DNA from: Acinetobacter sp. ANC 4204 | GTDB taxonomy: Bacteria; Pseudomonadota; Gammaproteobacteria; Pseudomonadales; Moraxellaceae | Assembly (NCBI RefSeq): GCF_002135205.1 | Contig: NZ_NEFZ01000001.1 | Span: 434,001 to 498,000 of the forward strand | DNA: 64,000 bases | Direction: 5' to 3' | Shown here: positions 173-54,726 of the stretch, piece after piece | How the letters are laid out: every line of letters starts with the position of its first letter | How positions within the stretch are numbered: position 1 is the first letter of the stretch | Notes under the pieces: generated by a model | The model's database searches: none | Seen by the model: the letters and a program-made list of their open reading frames with translations, nothing else | Told to the model about the DNA's origin: nothing | Program-made: the position numbers and the translations under genes

Positions 173-1074
173 TCAATCCCCCCAATAGAAATTTCAATAT
201 TGGTGCAATAGGTTGCTTGAGCTGGAGTTAATACAACATCGGCTACAGGGCTCATTAATTCAACTCGGTTCACACCATCAACATGCAATGCCGCAAAAAT
301 TGCAGACAACCGAATGGATCGACCCAGTCGTTTCTGTTTGGTCGCGTAGGTCGTCACATTATCAATCGACTGTTGTAAAAGCGTTGCTGCTTCAGGATCT
401 TTGCCAAGATAAAGTTTGGCTTGAATGGCGTAGGAAATGATTTCGGCTGATTGAACAGTGACACGATCTCCAATGGGACGAACGTCCTCTGCTGTGACAG
501 CATTTTCTACAATTTGCACCAACTCTGGAGATGCAGATCCTGTTAATGAATCCGCTTGTAAAATGGTTAAAGTGATATAAGCAGGTTGAGGTGAAACCAC
601 TGAGACATCACCAACACGACCATCGGCATCACGGGCAAATTTCTTATACGCTGCTTCAGGGCCTGCAACAGACAATGTGTCAAAAGCAAGTTGAATCCTT
701 TCTCGAAAGGCATCATCTGACTCCATTACAGCTAAGGTTGGTGGTGTAATAGAAAGGTCTGCAGACTTAATAGTTAAACGTTTGACATTAAAGTTTGCCC
801 CTACTTGATCAAGATCATTTTTTGTTGCGTAGGCGAGTAATAATGCCCGTGAAGCGGTATTAATTCGATTTCTTAAAACCATTTCACGATACGCATTTTC
901 CTCTAAAAACTTAGTCAAAGGCTCGCTTTCACGGTCTAGTGTTTCTGTTATTTGGGAAAGCTGATCTGCAGGGAATCTCGCAATAAGATCAGCTTTCCTT
1001 TCGGCAAGGATGTTTTCAAAATCTAATGTTTCGATAATGTCTGGCGGAGCAAGCTGACTAAAATCTACGCTCAT
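169..1074 (-). CDS. J: Baseplate assembly protein J (P2 gpJ-like)
   Basis: 301 residues, the usual length for P2 gpJ. The start MSVDFSQLAPPDIIETLDFENILAE and the acidic, soluble character fit the Baseplate_J family, which forms the wedge of the contractile-tail baseplate. It overlaps W upstream and I downstream by four bases each, so W-J-I is translationally coupled. No frameshift or internal stop is seen, so the morphogenesis module looks intact here. Confidence 0.9.
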   Translation of the reverse strand: MSVDFSQLAPPDIIETLDFENILAERKADLIARFPADQLSQITETLDRESEPLTKFLEENAYREMVLRNRINTASRALLLAYATKNDLDQVGANFNVKRLTIKSADLSITPPTLAVMESDDAFRERIQLAFDTLSVAGPEAAYKKFARDADGRVGDVSVVSPQPAYITLTILQADSLTGSASPELVQIVENAVTAEDVRPIGDRVTVQSAEIISYAIQAKLYLGKDPEAATLLQQSIDNVTTYATKQKRLGRSIRLSAIFAALHVDGVNRVELMSPVADVVLTPAQATYCTNIEISIGGIE

Positions 1075-2042: not shown

Positions 2043-2489
2043 TTATTTAGAAAAATAGTCTAGAACATCAGATTCAATCATTTCCAACTCTGCAGGTGTA
2101 AAACCTAATATCTCTCGGCTGTCATATTTTACAGTCGGTCCACCTTTTTCAACTCGATCTCTTAAACCATATTGGTGAACCCGGGCAATGTTGGCCACTC
2201 TGTTCATAAAGCCAATAGCCACCCCTTCAGAGGTTCGTTCAATCTTCATATATTTTGAAGTTTTAATAAGATTGAACATTTTGTTTTTGATTTTATTTTT
2301 CTTGTCCCTTAGTCGTTTTTTTCTAGGCACAAAAGCACTGCCATCGGGATTTTGTTGTCGCGTTATCCTGGTCTTTTGTGATGCCCGAACTTTGCGGGCA
2401 ATACTCATTTCTAATTTTCGTCGCTCGGCATCGCTTAACTTGGTAAGCAATGGAGCAAGATAATCGTTTAGTGCCTGAAGCTCTGCCAT
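2043..2489 (-). CDS. S: Phage virion morphogenesis / tail completion protein S (P2 gpS-like)
   Basis: 148 residues from the ATG (a TTG codon directly upstream is less likely). The very basic centre (SIARKVRASQKTRI, RKKRLRDKKNKIKNK) followed by GLRDRVEKGG and a C-terminal ILGFTPAELEMIESDVLDYF are characteristic of the phage virion morphogenesis (gpS) family, which completes the head-proximal tail end with gpR. It starts almost immediately after the R stop codon. Confidence 0.87.
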   Translation of the reverse strand: MAELQALNDYLAPLLTKLSDAERRKLEMSIARKVRASQKTRITRQQNPDGSAFVPRKKRLRDKKNKIKNKMFNLIKTSKYMKIERTSEGVAIGFMNRVANIARVHQYGLRDRVEKGGPTVKYDSREILGFTPAELEMIESDVLDYFSK

Positions 2490-26089: not shown

Positions 26090-26358
26090 GCTTACATATT
26101 TGAACCTCAAATGCTCCATGAGGATTATGATGAATCATGGAGTGTTATGAAGATGTACATCATCAAATTATTTTAGAATATGCATTTTTATGATGCATTT
26201 TTATTGACCATTTTTTCATACGAATTATTTTTGATCATTAAATCACATCCACAAACTGTGATTAAGACACTCCCTTCCCCCAACGAAAATGTTTAAACAT
26301 CCCACTAAAAACACGTTCTATCGCCAATAAAGCCGATTTTTTTCATTTATTTTATGTG
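26090..26358. other. Intergenic region between the ompW-like gene and the nitrate transporter promoter
   Basis: About 270 bp. A CTCCATGA/TCATGGAG inverted repeat at about 26113-26142 may end the ompW-like transcript, although its T-run is weak. No gene recognised. Confidence 0.4.
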
Positions 26359-26359
26359 T

Positions 26360-26375
26360 TGGCATACTGTTTGCT
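26360..26375 (+). promoter_or_regulatory. Sigma-54-type promoter of the nitrate transporter
   Basis: TGGCATACTGTTTGCT matches the -24/-12 consensus TGGCAC-N5-TTGC with correct GG-to-GC spacing; only the bases after TGGCA differ. Transcription would start near 26386, about 118 bases before the ATG. Sigma-54 with NtrC is the usual control of nitrogen assimilation genes, which fits a nitrate transporter. Confidence 0.72.
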
Positions 26376-26390
26376 TTTTAGACAACATGA

Positions 26391-26438
26391 GAAATCAACG
26401 TAGATTCCTCAACTATATAGACGGCCAAAGATGTCCGT
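26391..26438 (+). promoter_or_regulatory. Two-hexaloop ANTAR-type (NasT-like) leader motif
   Basis: Hairpin 1 (26391-26408) is GAAATC-AACGTA-GATTCC and hairpin 2 (26421-26438) is ACGGCC-AAAGAT-GTCCGT. Each has a six-base loop with A in position 1 and G in position 4, separated by a 12-base linker. This is the known RNA target of ANTAR antiterminators such as NasR, NasT and EutV. Each stem has one internal mismatch. Confidence 0.68.
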
Positions 26439-26448
26439 TCTGATCGGT

Positions 26449-26480
26449 TTGCAAATTATCTTTTATTTGCAATCACTTTT
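26449..26480 (+). terminator. Possible leader attenuator hairpin
   Basis: TTGCAAAT-N8-ATTTGCAA, a perfect 8-bp stem, followed by TCACTTTT. It lies between the twin hexaloop hairpins and the nitrate transporter start, where an ANTAR-controlled terminator is expected. It is AT-rich, with an imperfect T-run. Confidence 0.5.
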
Positions 26481-26503
26481 ACGTTCAGTTCAGGGGATGG
26501 CTT

Positions 26504-27853
26504 ATGTCTTCAACAATTAATCGCGAAGCAAAAAAAGCAACACAAATAAAACTCTTTAGTTTCTCCACGCCAGCAATGCGCGCTTTCCATATGACTTGGC
26601 TCGCATTCTTTGTTTGTTTCTTCGCATGGTTTGCCTGTGCACCGCTGATGCCTGTGATTAAAGGCGAATTTAATTTAACCAAAGACCAAATCGCGAATAT
26701 TAATATTGCTGCGGTTGCCATTACCATTCTAATCCGTCTTATTGTTGGTCCATTATGTGATAAATATGGCCCTAGAAAAACGTATACAGCACTTCTAATA
26801 TTAGGCAGCATTCCTGTGTTTGGTGTTGCTTCTGCCAATACCTATGAATCATTTTTATTCTTCCGCTTGCTGATTGGTGCAATTGGAGCAAGTTTTGTTA
26901 TTACCCAATACCATACTAGTGTGATGTTTGCACCCAACGTAGTAGGTACTGCAAATGCTGCGGCTGCTGGCTGGGGCAATGCAGGTGGAGGCGCAACTCA
27001 AGCATTAATGCCACTTATTCTGGGTGCAATCCTAATGTTTGGTGTTGAACAAGCAATGGGCTGGCGTATTGCCCTCCTTGTACCAGGGATCATGATGGTG
27101 ATCGTTGGGATGCTGTATTGGAAATTTACTCAAGACTGTCCACAAGGGAACTTTAAAGAACTTCGCGCTCAAGGAATTGAAGTGGGTAGCGGTAAAAAAG
27201 GTGGAACAGCAATTTTACTTCAAGCTGCTCGTAACTACCGTGTATGGATCCTATTTGTATCGTATGGAGCATGTTTCGGTATTGAGATTTTCATCCACAA
27301 TATTGCAGCAATGTACTATACCGATCACTTTAACATGGGCTTAAAAGAAGCAGGCTTAGCTGCTGGTATCTTTGGTTTACTTGCATTATTTGCACGCGCT
27401 TTAGGGGGTATCGTATCTGACAAAGTTGCTATCTCTAAAGGCCTAGATGGTCGCACTAAAGTACTATTCTTATTGGTTTTACTTGAAGGCTTATTCTTAA
27501 TCGTATTCTCACAGATGAATACAGCAATGCTTGCCATTATTAGCATGACCGTTTTCGCCCTGTTTACCCACATGGCATGTGGTGCAACCTACGCTCTGGT
27601 TCCTTTCATTGATCGTGATGCTCTAGGTGGTGTAGCAGGCATTATTGGTGCTGGTGGTAACGTGGGTGCTGTTGCTGCAGGCTTCTTACTTAAAGGTGTA
27701 TTAGATGTTCAGACTTGCCTGTTTATTTTAGGTGGTTTGGTCACTGTAGCTGCATTTAGCGTAATTCTAATTCGCTTCTCAGTTGAACATAAAGCAAAAG
27801 AAAAACAATTATTTGAACAAGCTGTCTTAGAACGCAACAGCCTCGCCTCTTAA
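26504..27853 (+). CDS. narK: MFS nitrate/nitrite transporter (NarK/NasA family)
   Basis: 449 residues with about 12 membrane segments. NarK-family signatures: TWLAFFVCFFAWFACAPLMPVI in helix 1, the FLFFRLLIGAIGASFVITQYHTSVMFAPNVVGTANAAAAGWGNAGGG stretch (read in parts, first nitrate signature), and the second GIIGAGGNVGAVAAGFLL in the C-terminal half. It imports nitrate, probably for assimilation in this aerobe. The ATG at 26504 has GGGGATGG upstream. The sigma-54-type promoter and ANTAR-type leader support nitrogen control. Confidence 0.93.
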   Translation: MSSTINREAKKATQIKLFSFSTPAMRAFHMTWLAFFVCFFAWFACAPLMPVIKGEFNLTKDQIANINIAAVAITILIRLIVGPLCDKYGPRKTYTALLILGSIPVFGVASANTYESFLFFRLLIGAIGASFVITQYHTSVMFAPNVVGTANAAAAGWGNAGGGATQALMPLILGAILMFGVEQAMGWRIALLVPGIMMVIVGMLYWKFTQDCPQGNFKELRAQGIEVGSGKKGGTAILLQAARNYRVWILFVSYGACFGIEIFIHNIAAMYYTDHFNMGLKEAGLAAGIFGLLALFARALGGIVSDKVAISKGLDGRTKVLFLLVLLEGLFLIVFSQMNTAMLAIISMTVFALFTHMACGATYALVPFIDRDALGGVAGIIGAGGNVGAVAAGFLLKGVLDVQTCLFILGGLVTVAAFSVILIRFSVEHKAKEKQLFEQAVLERNSLAS

Positions 27854-27942: not shown

Positions 27943-29157
27943 ATGAAATTGCGTACTCTCTCTGCGCTTTCACTTGCCTGCATTTCAGCAACGACATCCT
28001 ATGCAGCCGATAACTTTTTATCACAAACCAAGTTTTCACTAGACACGCGCTTACGCTATGAAATGGTAGATCAAGATAATAAACTTGATAACGCAGAAGC
28101 TTTTACTCTCCGCATTCGTCCTGCACTACAAACAGGCAGTTGGCATGGATTAAGCGGCTTTGTGCAAGGTGAAGGAACACTTGAACTTAATGATCATTTT
28201 AACAGTACACGTAATGCTGAAACAGGTTATAGCAGTGTACCTGACCCTGAAAACCTACAATTAAATCAGCTTTATTTAAAGTACGTTTATAGTCCTAAGG
28301 CCGATTTAACAGTTGGTCGTCAAGTAATTAATCTAGATAATCAACGTTTTGTGGGTTCTGTTGCATGGCGTCAAAACGACCAAACTTTCGATGCAGTCAG
28401 TTTAAATATTAAGCCAACACAGCAGTTGGGCTTGTATTATGCATACATAGATCAGGTCAATACCATTTTTGGAAGCGAAGAGCCAAAGCCCAAATATGTA
28501 GCCGCTCAAGATGGCGAACAAGACAGTGAAATTCACTTAATTCAAGCCAAATTTAATTACAATCCACTATTGAATGCTACAGCTTATGGTTATTTCATGG
28601 ATTTTGAAGACTTACCAGCGTGGTCAAATCAAACCTATGGTCTACGTTTAACAGGCAAAAATAAAAATTTACGTTATGTGGCTGAATATGCCAAACAATC
28701 TGAATATGCTGACCAACCAACATCTTATGATGCAGACTATTATACCTTCGAACTTGGCTATAACGTAGGTGCAGCTAAACCATTAGGTGAAATTGCAATT
28801 GGCTACGAAGTCCTCGGAAGTGATGACGGAAAAATTGGCTTTCAAACCCCTTTAGCAACGAAACATAAATTTAATGGTTGGACAGATGTTTTTCTCAATA
28901 CACCTGCAAATGGTCTAACTGATTTGTACCTCAGCTCAAACCTTAATATTTTAAAGCAAGGCAAGCTAGGTACGGAATATCACCATTATCGTAGCGATGA
29001 AAAAAATATGGATTATGGACAAGAGTTTGCTGTGTCATTTACCCACCCTCTTCCACTCAAAGGTTTGTCCGCACTCGGCAAATTTTCAAGCTATCAAGCT
29101 GAAGACTATGGCGTAAATACCGATAAATTCTGGTTACAACTCGATTATAAATACTAA
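27943..29157 (+). CDS. Alginate-export-family outer membrane porin
   Basis: 404 residues from the ATG at 27943, which has AGGGGAA upstream. A signal peptide (about 1-22, cut after SYA) is followed by many amphipathic beta strands ending in the Phe/Tyr-type barrel end WLQLDYKY. The FSLDTRLRYEMVDQDN start and LYLKYVYSPKADLTVGRQVINLDNQRFVGSVAWRQNDQTFDAV region are typical of the Alginate_exp family, whose members are often general porins. It follows the nitrate transporter by 89 bp and may help nitrate cross the outer membrane, which is an inference. Confidence 0.8.
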   Translation: MKLRTLSALSLACISATTSYAADNFLSQTKFSLDTRLRYEMVDQDNKLDNAEAFTLRIRPALQTGSWHGLSGFVQGEGTLELNDHFNSTRNAETGYSSVPDPENLQLNQLYLKYVYSPKADLTVGRQVINLDNQRFVGSVAWRQNDQTFDAVSLNIKPTQQLGLYYAYIDQVNTIFGSEEPKPKYVAAQDGEQDSEIHLIQAKFNYNPLLNATAYGYFMDFEDLPAWSNQTYGLRLTGKNKNLRYVAEYAKQSEYADQPTSYDADYYTFELGYNVGAAKPLGEIAIGYEVLGSDDGKIGFQTPLATKHKFNGWTDVFLNTPANGLTDLYLSSNLNILKQGKLGTEYHHYRSDEKNMDYGQEFAVSFTHPLPLKGLSALGKFSSYQAEDYGVNTDKFWLQLDYKY

Positions 29158-53044: not shown

Positions 53045-53364
53045 CTTATATATCCAACCGCCAAAATTACCCGAAAAAAACACAAAAATAAAAACAAAAT
53101 TGCATTAATCTATTTTTTCAACATATTTTGAAAAGTTAATTAATTTTTCTTATATTTCCCTTGAAATAAATCATGCTCCAAGGGCTGTTCAGAAAAAAAT
53201 CTCAAAATGCTTGTCAAAAAATAAATTCCATGCAACAAATAGACCAAGACTAAAAAAGACAAGAAATCGTGCAGGATGCATGACTATGGCATATCAATTG
53301 CTTAATAAAACTCAAATTTTTTATAGAAATTTCAAGTTTTAAAACATAGAGGATCAAAAGAAAA
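53045..53364. other. Divergent intergenic region between two amino acid transporters
   Basis: About 320 bp, AT-rich. It must hold promoters for both genes, but no clear -35/-10 pair or operator could be fixed. Confidence 0.35.
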
Positions 53365-54726
53365 ATGAATACAGAAAATTTACAAACATTTATGGAAATG
53401 ATTAGTGGCTGGGTCTGGGGGCCCTACATGCTGGTCCTCATTGTTGGGACAGGTATATTTCTCACCCTACGTTTATTTTTTTGGCAAATTCGCATGTTGC
53501 CTTTGGCCTTTAAACAAGTTTTTGGAAAACACGAGGATGCCAAATCACATGCAGGAGATATTTCTCATTTTGCGTCATTGATGACCGCGCTATCAGCGAC
53601 TATTGGTACAGGTAATATTGCAGGTGTGGCAACAGCCTGTGTTTTAGGTGGTCCAGGGGCTGTGTTTTGGATGTGGATGACTGCGCTGTTCGGTATGGCC
53701 ACCAAATATGGTGAAGGTGTACTGGCCGTAAAATACCGCATCAAAAATGAAAAAGGCGAAATGTCGGGTGGCCCAATGTACTACATTGAACGTGGCTTAA
53801 AATGGAAATGGTTGGCACTAATTTTCGCCCTTTTTGGCACATTGGCTTCATTTGGTATTGGTAGTTCCGTACAGTCCAACACCGTTGCACTGGCTATAGA
53901 AAACAGCACAGGAGTTGCAACATGGATCACAGGCATCGTCATTACTGTATTTTCTGCCTTAGTGATTTTGGGTGGAATTAAGTCTATTTCCAAAGCAGCT
54001 TCTTTCATTGTTCCCATCATGGCTATCGGCTATGTCCTCGGCGGTCTGATCATTATCTTTAACCATCTTGAATTGGTTATGCCTGCACTTGAGCTAATTT
54101 TCCGGGATGCCTTTACTGGTGAAGCAGTAGCGGGTGGTGCGATTGGTGCGGTGATTCGTTATGGTGTTGCACGTGGCGTCTTCTCAAATGAAGCAGGTAT
54201 GGGCTCAGCACCAATTGCCGCCGCTGCTGCAAAAACAGATCACCCTGCGCGTCAAGGTTTGGTCTCTATGACAGGCACCTTCATTGACACTATTATTGTT
54301 TGTAGTATTACGGGGATTGTATTGGTCATGGGCTTTATCATGGCTGGCAATAGCTTTGGAGGAGAAACAGGCGCAGTTTTAACAACCCATGTTTTCGATA
54401 AGTTACTTCCTGGAGTCGGTGGTTGGATCGTGACTTTTGGTATTGTGTTCTTTGCTTATTCGACCATTTTAGGTTGGTGCTACTACGGTGAAAAATGCTG
54501 TACTTATTTACTGGGCGAAAAGTATGTCCTCTTGTACCGCATTATTTACATCGCATCCGTTTTCATTGGCTGCGTTGCATCTCTTGATCTCGTATGGTTA
54601 TTTGCAGACACCTTTAATGGTTTGATGGCCGTTCCAAACTTAATTGCTTTGCTATTACTCTCAACAGTCATTGTGAAAGAGTCACGTGATTTTATCGAAA
54701 AACGAAAATCAGGTGAGTTGTATTAG
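53365..54726 (+). CDS. Sodium:alanine/glycine symporter (AgcS/AlsT family)
   Basis: 453 residues with about 11 helices. Family signatures are FASLMTALSATIGTGNIAGVATACVLGGPGAVFWMWMTALFGMATKYGEGVLAVKYR (read in parts) and the RGVFSNEAGMGSAPIAAAAA motif. It takes up alanine or glycine with sodium. A terminator follows. Confidence 0.94.
   Translation: MNTENLQTFMEMISGWVWGPYMLVLIVGTGIFLTLRLFFWQIRMLPLAFKQVFGKHEDAKSHAGDISHFASLMTALSATIGTGNIAGVATACVLGGPGAVFWMWMTALFGMATKYGEGVLAVKYRIKNEKGEMSGGPMYYIERGLKWKWLALIFALFGTLASFGIGSSVQSNTVALAIENSTGVATWITGIVITVFSALVILGGIKSISKAASFIVPIMAIGYVLGGLIIIFNHLELVMPALELIFRDAFTGEAVAGGAIGAVIRYGVARGVFSNEAGMGSAPIAAAAAKTDHPARQGLVSMTGTFIDTIIVCSITGIVLVMGFIMAGNSFGGETGAVLTTHVFDKLLPGVGGWIVTFGIVFFAYSTILGWCYYGEKCCTYLLGEKYVLLYRIIYIASVFIGCVASLDLVWLFADTFNGLMAVPNLIALLLLSTVIVKESRDFIEKRKSGELY

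Follow-up and report, generated by a model that had tools for sequence, protein, structure and literature searches.

ANTAR proteins are named for antitermination, and in NasST systems NasT is held by NasS as long as nitrate is absent. The closest described systems are NasR-nasF of Klebsiella and NasT-nas of Azotobacter, Pseudomonas putida, and Paracoccus, in which Ntr control is combined with nitrate control via an ANTAR protein and leader hairpins (PMC5424462). In Paracoccus, where Ntr and NasTS control act together, nitrate is proposed to work at translation as well (PMC5424462). The RNA target was defined by Ramesh et al. (2012) as a dual hexaloop, in which two stem-loops, both with A1 and G4 conserved in the loop, are joined by a linker that varies, and for matches lacking a terminator, control of translation initiation was already suggested there (PMC3369931). 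Six-base loops of ANTAR target RNA are also stated in PMC8164766, which further describes actinobacterial ANTAR RNAs with the ribosome-binding site or AUG inside the dual stem and translational repression in mycobacteria. A literature search covering mostly freely readable papers found none on translational activation by NasT or on the Acinetobacter leader presented here.

In the 64,000-nt stretch of Acinetobacter sp. ANC 4204 that was analyzed (the window), a gene for a narK-type nitrate/nitrite MFS transporter of 449 aa (26504-27853, + strand; PF07690; TIGR00886 with 304.6 bits, just below the cut-off of 311.7), whose closest named relatives are from Acinetobacter, is preceded by a leader that, judged from its sequence, is real, conserved, sigma-54-driven, and of the NasT type. 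As in the NasR-nasF and NasT-nas leaders, an Ntr-type promoter and ANTAR-type hairpins are located in front of nitrate assimilation genes (PMC5424462). Those systems are described as transcription antitermination (PMC5424462), whereas no leader terminator was found in Acinetobacter, where control is predicted to act on the start region. The two A1/G4 stems are shared with the dual-hexaloop RNA of EutV, AmiR, and NasR; there, the second stem (P2) competes with a terminator, while P2 of Acinetobacter is predicted to compete with the start codon and the Shine-Dalgarno sequence (PMC3369931). The dual hexaloop ANTAR RNA itself is already known; what is new about this variant is its output, apparently the start codon and not a terminator. 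The reading favored here, to which we give somewhat better than even odds, is a nitrate-assimilation leader where NasT activates translation, with the start codon as output.

The promoter of the original prediction can be read directly as the -24/-12 element TGGCATACTGTTTGC (26360-26374, + strand), in which 10 nt separate GG from GC, with a predicted transcription start at ~26386. The window contains two matches to TGGCAYN5TTGC where 0.50 would be expected, and since 10 of 100 shuffled windows contain at least two matches, it is weak evidence when taken by itself. The second sigma-54-like site, TGGCATATCAATTGC at 53287-53301 (0.5 expected by chance), lies 63 nt before an ORF starting at 53365 (MNTENLQTFMEMISGWVWGP), which by eye looks like a sodium:amino-acid symporter. 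Upstream of the narK promoter, a palindrome of the NtrC type, TGCATTTTTATGATGCA (26181-26197, no strand assigned), starts 179 bp before the sigma-54 element and represents a predicted enhancer. Palindromes were scored against TGCACYANNNTRGTGCA, taken as the NtrC-site consensus; 11 of its 14 specified positions are matched by TGCATTTTTATGATGCA, a value that 2% of shuffled upstream regions attain (60 shuffles). Across the 67 leaders introduced below, the best NtrC-type site by this consensus (at least 10/14) falls at -185 to -150 in 51, compared with 9 of 335 shuffles. The host genome encodes both rpoN (505.9 bits, cut-off 277.35) and ntrC (741.6 bits, cut-off 558.6). The predicted sites, together with these genes, back the proposal of an NtrC-dependent promoter responding to nitrogen limitation.

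Transcription from sigma-54 promoters starts ~12 nt after the GC. The 5-bp stem of the first hairpin (P1) begins 12 nt after the -12 TGC in 41/67 leaders, 13 nt in 7/67, and 15-19 nt in 19/67, so that P1 should be transcribed and, by this spacing, should open at or near the RNA 5' end. TGGCAY...TGC was found in 67/67 leaders, a count to be read with the caveat that a sigma-54-like match was required for entry to the set. This condition cost no Acinetobacter match; matches without such a site in the scanned 80 nt came from Herbaspirillum (L065, L068), where one is present farther upstream, and Janthinobacterium (L083).

Both hexaloop hairpins of the original prediction were recovered, and they recur across Acinetobacter narK leaders. 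P1, GAGAAATC-AACGTA-GATTCCTC (26389-26410, + strand; loop 26397-26402), contains one A.C mismatch and has a covarying stem; P2, ACGGCC-AAAGAT-GTCCGT (26421-26438, + strand; loop 26427-26432), contains one C.U mismatch. The segment AGACGGCCA (26419-26427, + strand), made up of the linker end and the P2 5' arm, is the alternative partner of the start region (26498-26509) in the minimum free energy fold. An outer stem P4, proposed by RNAalifold, is formed by CTGATCG (26440-26446) and CGTTCAG (26482-26488) on the + strand and encloses the previously noted 8-bp hairpin P3, TTGCAAAT...ATTTGCAA (26449-26472, + strand). P4 directly precedes the Shine-Dalgarno sequence GGGGA (26493-26497, + strand), which is predicted to pair with the P2 3' arm in the alternative fold and to be largely occupied by it in the OFF state; the narK ATG follows at 26504. 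The pyrimidine-pyrimidine mismatch one pair below the P2 loop (26425/26434) is conserved as C.U or U.C, whereas the last hexaloop of betaproteobacteria (GGAC...GTCC) has a standard pair at this position.

The host genome (3.9 Mb) encodes a single ANTAR protein, and this is NasT: the gene, coding for a receiver and an ANTAR domain, adjoins nasS, which encodes an NMT1-like sensor. The NasST-type pair that had been proposed is thus present. nasTS are divergent from an operon comprising a second narK, nirB, a FAD protein, and nitrate reductase (named from reading the translations), and this narK-nirB-nasA operon carries a leader of its own with the sigma-54 element TGGCACAATCATTGC, P1 GAGTC-AAAGAC-GACTC, and P2 ACGGCC-AACGAC-GTCCGT. 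A covariance model (R1, alignment A2), built from 27 hand-chosen sequences of the 67-leader set, detected in the host genome only these two leaders (E 3.7e-12 and 1.9e-9; next E 6.6); as both are among the training rows, this says only that no third site was found. An NtrC-sigma-54 plus NasST reading is well supported by these sequence features. The suggestion that nitrogen and nitrate are combined in AND logic is plausible, because sigma-54/NtrC sites, dual hexaloop leader, and NasST pair are all present; its restriction to one transporter was too narrow, as the second leader heads narK-nirB-nasA.

Conservation was assessed on leaders gathered with a P2 regex allowing two substitutions and additionally requiring a sigma-54-like match. 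Of 84 matches, 7 were set aside (three Alkanindiges; L065, L067, and L068; L083) and 10 identical duplicates removed, giving 67. In these, the alignment columns of G4 (both loops) and of the P2 A1 do not vary, with the caveat that the P2 letters are part of the gathering regex and that the regexes used for loop statistics themselves fix G4. The first position of the P1 loop is A in 61/67 and G in the remaining six (L050, L087, L094, L095, L115, L116), where the loop reads GAAGAC, a natural test of the A1 rule. With linkers of 10-21 nt between P1 and P2, the leaders show the layout of an ANTAR dual hexaloop, i.e. two hexaloop stems, A1/G4, and a short linker, the P2 letters being partly due to selection. 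The stem and loop conservation expected in orthologous leaders is seen, subject to the same caveat. P1 and P4 covary, whereas the paired bases of P2 are invariant. Paired cells amount to 96.7% (92.7% after shuffling) and the covariation score to 0.151 (shuffled 0.081), each reached in 0/500 shuffles; pairs changed on both sides, one of five measures, number 5 compared with 3.8 and do not exceed the shuffles (91/500 reach 5). The leaders are related, and these counts are hence not independent. RNAalifold picked P1, P2, and P4 unaided, and also a pairing within the promoter, a part that is not transcribed. Two-sided changes in P4 affect two pairs, A-U/U-G/U-A and G-C/A-U.

Within the genus, the 26-base P2 pattern (up to 3 mismatches) was found in 115/149 genomes, its reversed control in 0/149. 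ANTAR proteins are encoded in 124/149 genomes; the pattern occurs in 115 of these and in none of the 25 ANTAR-lacking genomes (20 listed, five by elimination). Nine ANTAR-bearing genomes lack the pattern, eight of which have narK, all with a diverged leader, while G098 is without narK. As narK (122/149 genomes) is likewise absent from all 25 ANTAR-less genomes, narK, nasT, and leader vanish together, and their co-loss, being inseparable from the loss of narK, was rejected as proof of leader function. R1 did not match the additional narK copies of G026 and G099 (L133, L136).

The original prediction placed nitrate control at elongation, and here the results point elsewhere: no U-tract terminator was found in the leader, and the folds suggest that the start codon and the ribosome-binding site are what is controlled. 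In the window leader, no terminator-like site was found on the + strand from P1 to the start codon, nor an intrinsic terminator overlapping P2. P3 was considered as a terminator and rejected, since it is followed by TCACTTTTACG, which is no U-tract, and no terminator was found in the leader. Leader terminator scores of at least 50 were obtained for 0/46 Acinetobacter/Moraxellaceae loci (29 score 0; the maximum, 31.7 in L027, is P1 itself) versus 16/23 betaproteobacterial/Sphingomonas loci; of these 16, L063 has no visible hexaloop. The script was limited to 45 nt, and longer terminators are visible in some of the seven low scorers (e.g. L061, L077, L079, L084); L070 and L074 score 0. As judged by eye, narK leaders of betaproteobacteria use their last hexaloop as the 5' arm of a terminator with a U-tract. 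Scores also stayed below 50 (maximum 49.9) in 12 further loci, from Alkanindiges, Nevskia, Solimonas, and others. A terminator-like hairpin within narK itself (e.g. GCGAGCC...GGCTCGC followed by T7), ~90-105 nt past the start and at or beyond the 5% level of synonymous recodings, was observed in L025, L028-L036, L038, L044, L046, and L050, and not in the narK of the window.

Folding of the free leaders yields a mean P2 probability of 0.007, i.e. P2 is almost never formed. In eight folds viewed individually, the start region is typically paired to the P2 5' arm or the linker, and in several the P2 3' arm pairs with the Shine-Dalgarno sequence. Opening of the region from -13 to +4 costs on average 10.45 kcal/mol, compared with 5.42 when start regions of other genes are grafted (67 leaders, 40 grafts each), and 40/67 leaders lie at or beyond the 5% level of their grafts. 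Locking P2 reduces the mean cost from 10.45 to 5.37 kcal/mol; the cost falls in 67/67 leaders, by at least 2 kcal/mol in 58, whereas grafted controls (every fourth leader, i.e. 17/67, with 12 grafts each; 204 grafts) change only from 5.29 to 4.84. Ten leaders fetched after the idea had been formed behaved alike, with a free cost above the graft mean in 10/10 (at the 5% level in 5) and a reduction on locking in 10/10, although three of them (L134, L139, L140) stem from contigs sampled before and two others (L131, L138) closely resemble previous leaders. The linker together with the P2 5' arm can pair with the start codon and the first few codons; this pairing, mutually exclusive with P2, has a mean energy of -12.3 vs. 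-6.6 kcal/mol and is in excess, with 51/72 leaders at or beyond 5%; compared with synonymous recodings, 31/72 are at the 5% level (67 leaders and five of the ten later ones; the test was formed after seeing folds). The pairing letters vary by lineage, e.g. AAATTTGTAAGAC with GTCTTCAAATTT in L006 and AAATTTATATGAC with GTCTATAAATTT in L132, L135, and L137, and in L045, L047, L138, and L139 the hexaloop itself pairs with GGGGACGCCATT before the ATG. Since the P2 arms are invariant, P2-to-start pairing is not provable by covariation.

The effect in the window's own copy is modest and among the weaker ones in these models. Its opening cost is 8.2 vs. 5.8 kcal/mol grafted, with 12% of grafts as high, and locking P2 lowers it to 6.3 only. 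Its linker and P2 5' arm pair with gene positions -8 to +22 at -10.1 kcal/mol, compared with -6.0 for other genes (3.5% as strong), but show no excess over synonymous recodings (31% as strong). P2 alone against -25 to +12 did not exceed chance (4/67 at 5%) and was dropped as evidence. Forcing P2 did not raise the mean unpairedness of the Shine-Dalgarno sequence (0.44 to 0.42; up in 29/67), a test in which that sequence was probably misplaced in 10 rows: in 10/67 rows, all with ATGGCAATG-type starts, the fold, opening-cost, and locking tests took the first ATG, which is probably not the true start codon, while the linker test used the second. For the Alkanindiges, Nevskia, and Solimonas types, where strong terminators are absent as well, a start-region switch was considered and is not claimed, results from 10 leaders being mixed.

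These features suggest the following course of events. Under nitrogen limitation, transcription would be switched on via NtrC and sigma-54, as the sites and genes imply, and the RNA would begin at or shortly before P1. If nitrate is missing, NasS would keep NasT bound, and once the gene start is made, the leader would fold into a long imperfect hairpin, with the start-codon region paired to the linker and P2 5' arm, and the Shine-Dalgarno sequence to the P2 3' arm; the end of this OFF fold would be closed by P4 with the inner P3, and ribosome entry would be blocked. When nitrate is present, freed NasT would bind P1 and P2 as they emerge and lock P2, so that the ribosome site would stay open. 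The proposed outcome is translational activation of narK, probably of the porin gene behind it, and likewise of the narK-nirB-nasA operon. NasT binding, the direction of control, and translation as the regulated step are what we infer from the folds and the gene context. Translation is also the proposed controlled step for the actinobacterial and mycobacterial ANTAR RNAs, but ANTAR binding is reported to repress in mycobacteria, whereas Acinetobacter NasT would activate (PMC8164766).

Other explanations have to be weighed against translational activation. In classic ANTAR antitermination, NasT would prevent a weak or non-canonical intrinsic terminator formed by P3/P4, as in Klebsiella nasF and betaproteobacterial narK; the conservation of P4 and the U-tract terminators overlapping the last hexaloop in many homologues speak in favor, but with no strong terminator in any of the 46 Acinetobacter/Moraxellaceae loci, none between P1 and the start codon on the + strand of the window, and a Shine-Dalgarno sequence directly after P4, we regard it as unlikely. 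That the hexaloops are no NasT sites and the leader is conserved for a role as sRNA or in RNase or Hfq action is very improbable, given the A1/G4 loops, their paired spacing, the gene context, and homologues of the Rfam narK type (RF03032) near an ANTAR gene. Chance hairpins in an AT-rich leader could be suspected, with half a sigma-54 match expected per window, but this idea is already contradicted by conservation, covariation, and genome-wide uniqueness and deserves practically no credence.

A further possibility, polarity, extends translational activation rather than opposing it. Here, with the ribosome site hidden, the beginning of narK would not be translated, and RNA synthesis would end inside the gene by Rho or at an in-gene terminator ~95-110 nt in; NasT would act on translation, with mRNA length as the read-out. 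In-gene terminator-like scores do exceed those of synonymous recodings on average (37.2 vs. 23.3), with 14/46 genes, some near-identical, at or beyond the 5% level, and in L087 and L094, where the nas-linked narK is cut to a short remnant frame before a nirB-like gene, leader and in-gene hairpin are both retained. Nevertheless, the hairpin of the window's narK does not surpass its recodings (38%), some of the 46 genes, which are all related, are near-duplicates, part of the motif is imposed by the encoded protein, and such hairpins score in betaproteobacteria too, which leaves this rather doubtful.

The Rfam narK RNA (RF03032), for which a literature search by name found no paper, has a consensus in which a sigma-54-like element can be read along with two six-base A1/G4 segments that have complementary bases on either side; only a single stem is modelled by Rfam, whereas the Acinetobacter leader has two hexaloop stems. 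The window leader stays below the family's gathering threshold (27.6 bits, E 0.0022 in a search of 411 bases; gathering 43.2 bits). The search of the whole host genome produced four weak matches only (best E 0.21, overlapping the nas-operon leader) and none at the window leader; 13/14 control genomes also match at that threshold, and these hits were discarded. At E 0.001, RF03032 matches 12/274 gammaproteobacterial genomes, two of them above gathering. ANTAR proteins are encoded in 11 of the 12, compared with 87/274 in the background, and in 9 of those 11 an ANTAR gene lies within ~1.5 kb of the match. Eight of the 12 loci (L117-L122, L124, L127) display a sigma-54-like element, hexaloops, and a U-tract hairpin, the last hexaloop of L124 being atypical, and are followed by narK-like, nrtA-like, nitrate reductase, FAD reductase, or porin genes (assigned by reading, except porin). 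L123, L126, and L128 have no sigma-54-like match near the RF03032 match under the regex used. L125, with a poor sigma-54-like match, no leader layout, and a genome without ANTAR protein, is probably a false match. Because the loci show these parts and ANTAR enrichment, RF03032 seems to combine sigma-54 and ANTAR elements, with a second stem that the Rfam model does not include. On the same sequence comparison, it appears to be a terminator-type relative of the Acinetobacter leader, which suggests a function for the motif.

If Acinetobacter NasT opens ribosome sites, a single RNA receptor is coupled to two kinds of output. The change, comparable to expression-platform swaps between riboswitch classes, could then be traced by comparing the terminator leaders of betaproteobacteria with the start-codon leaders that Acinetobacter has for the same transporter. 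We put at about an even chance the broader proposal that such a swap took place Acinetobacter-wide, with the antiterminator hairpin kept, the terminator replaced by pairing with Shine-Dalgarno sequence, start, and first codons, the ANTAR protein acting as translational activator, and a possible reinforcement by in-gene terminators on untranslated narK. It could also suggest a mechanism for Paracoccus, where nitrate is likewise proposed to act at translation (PMC5424462).

The gene downstream of narK encodes an outer-membrane porin of the Alginate_exp family (27943-29157, + strand; PF13372, searched from codon 2). It was suspected of sharing the leader's control, and it is probably co-transcribed with narK: it starts 89 nt past that gene, and no terminator-like site was found between the two on the + strand. 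A porin is also encoded close downstream of narK in L007, L008, L016-L019, and L048. In another gammaproteobacterium (L127, - strand), an RF03032-type leader directly precedes a porin gene whose product is 37.6% identical to the window porin, which suggests, at the sequence level, that the porin belongs to the nitrate regulon. Leaders were further observed in front of short frames elsewhere: at 2365-2432 (- strand) of L142, where the frame has 81 codons and precedes nitrate reductase, and at 950-1016 (+ strand) of L141, where the short frame precedes a nirB-like gene.
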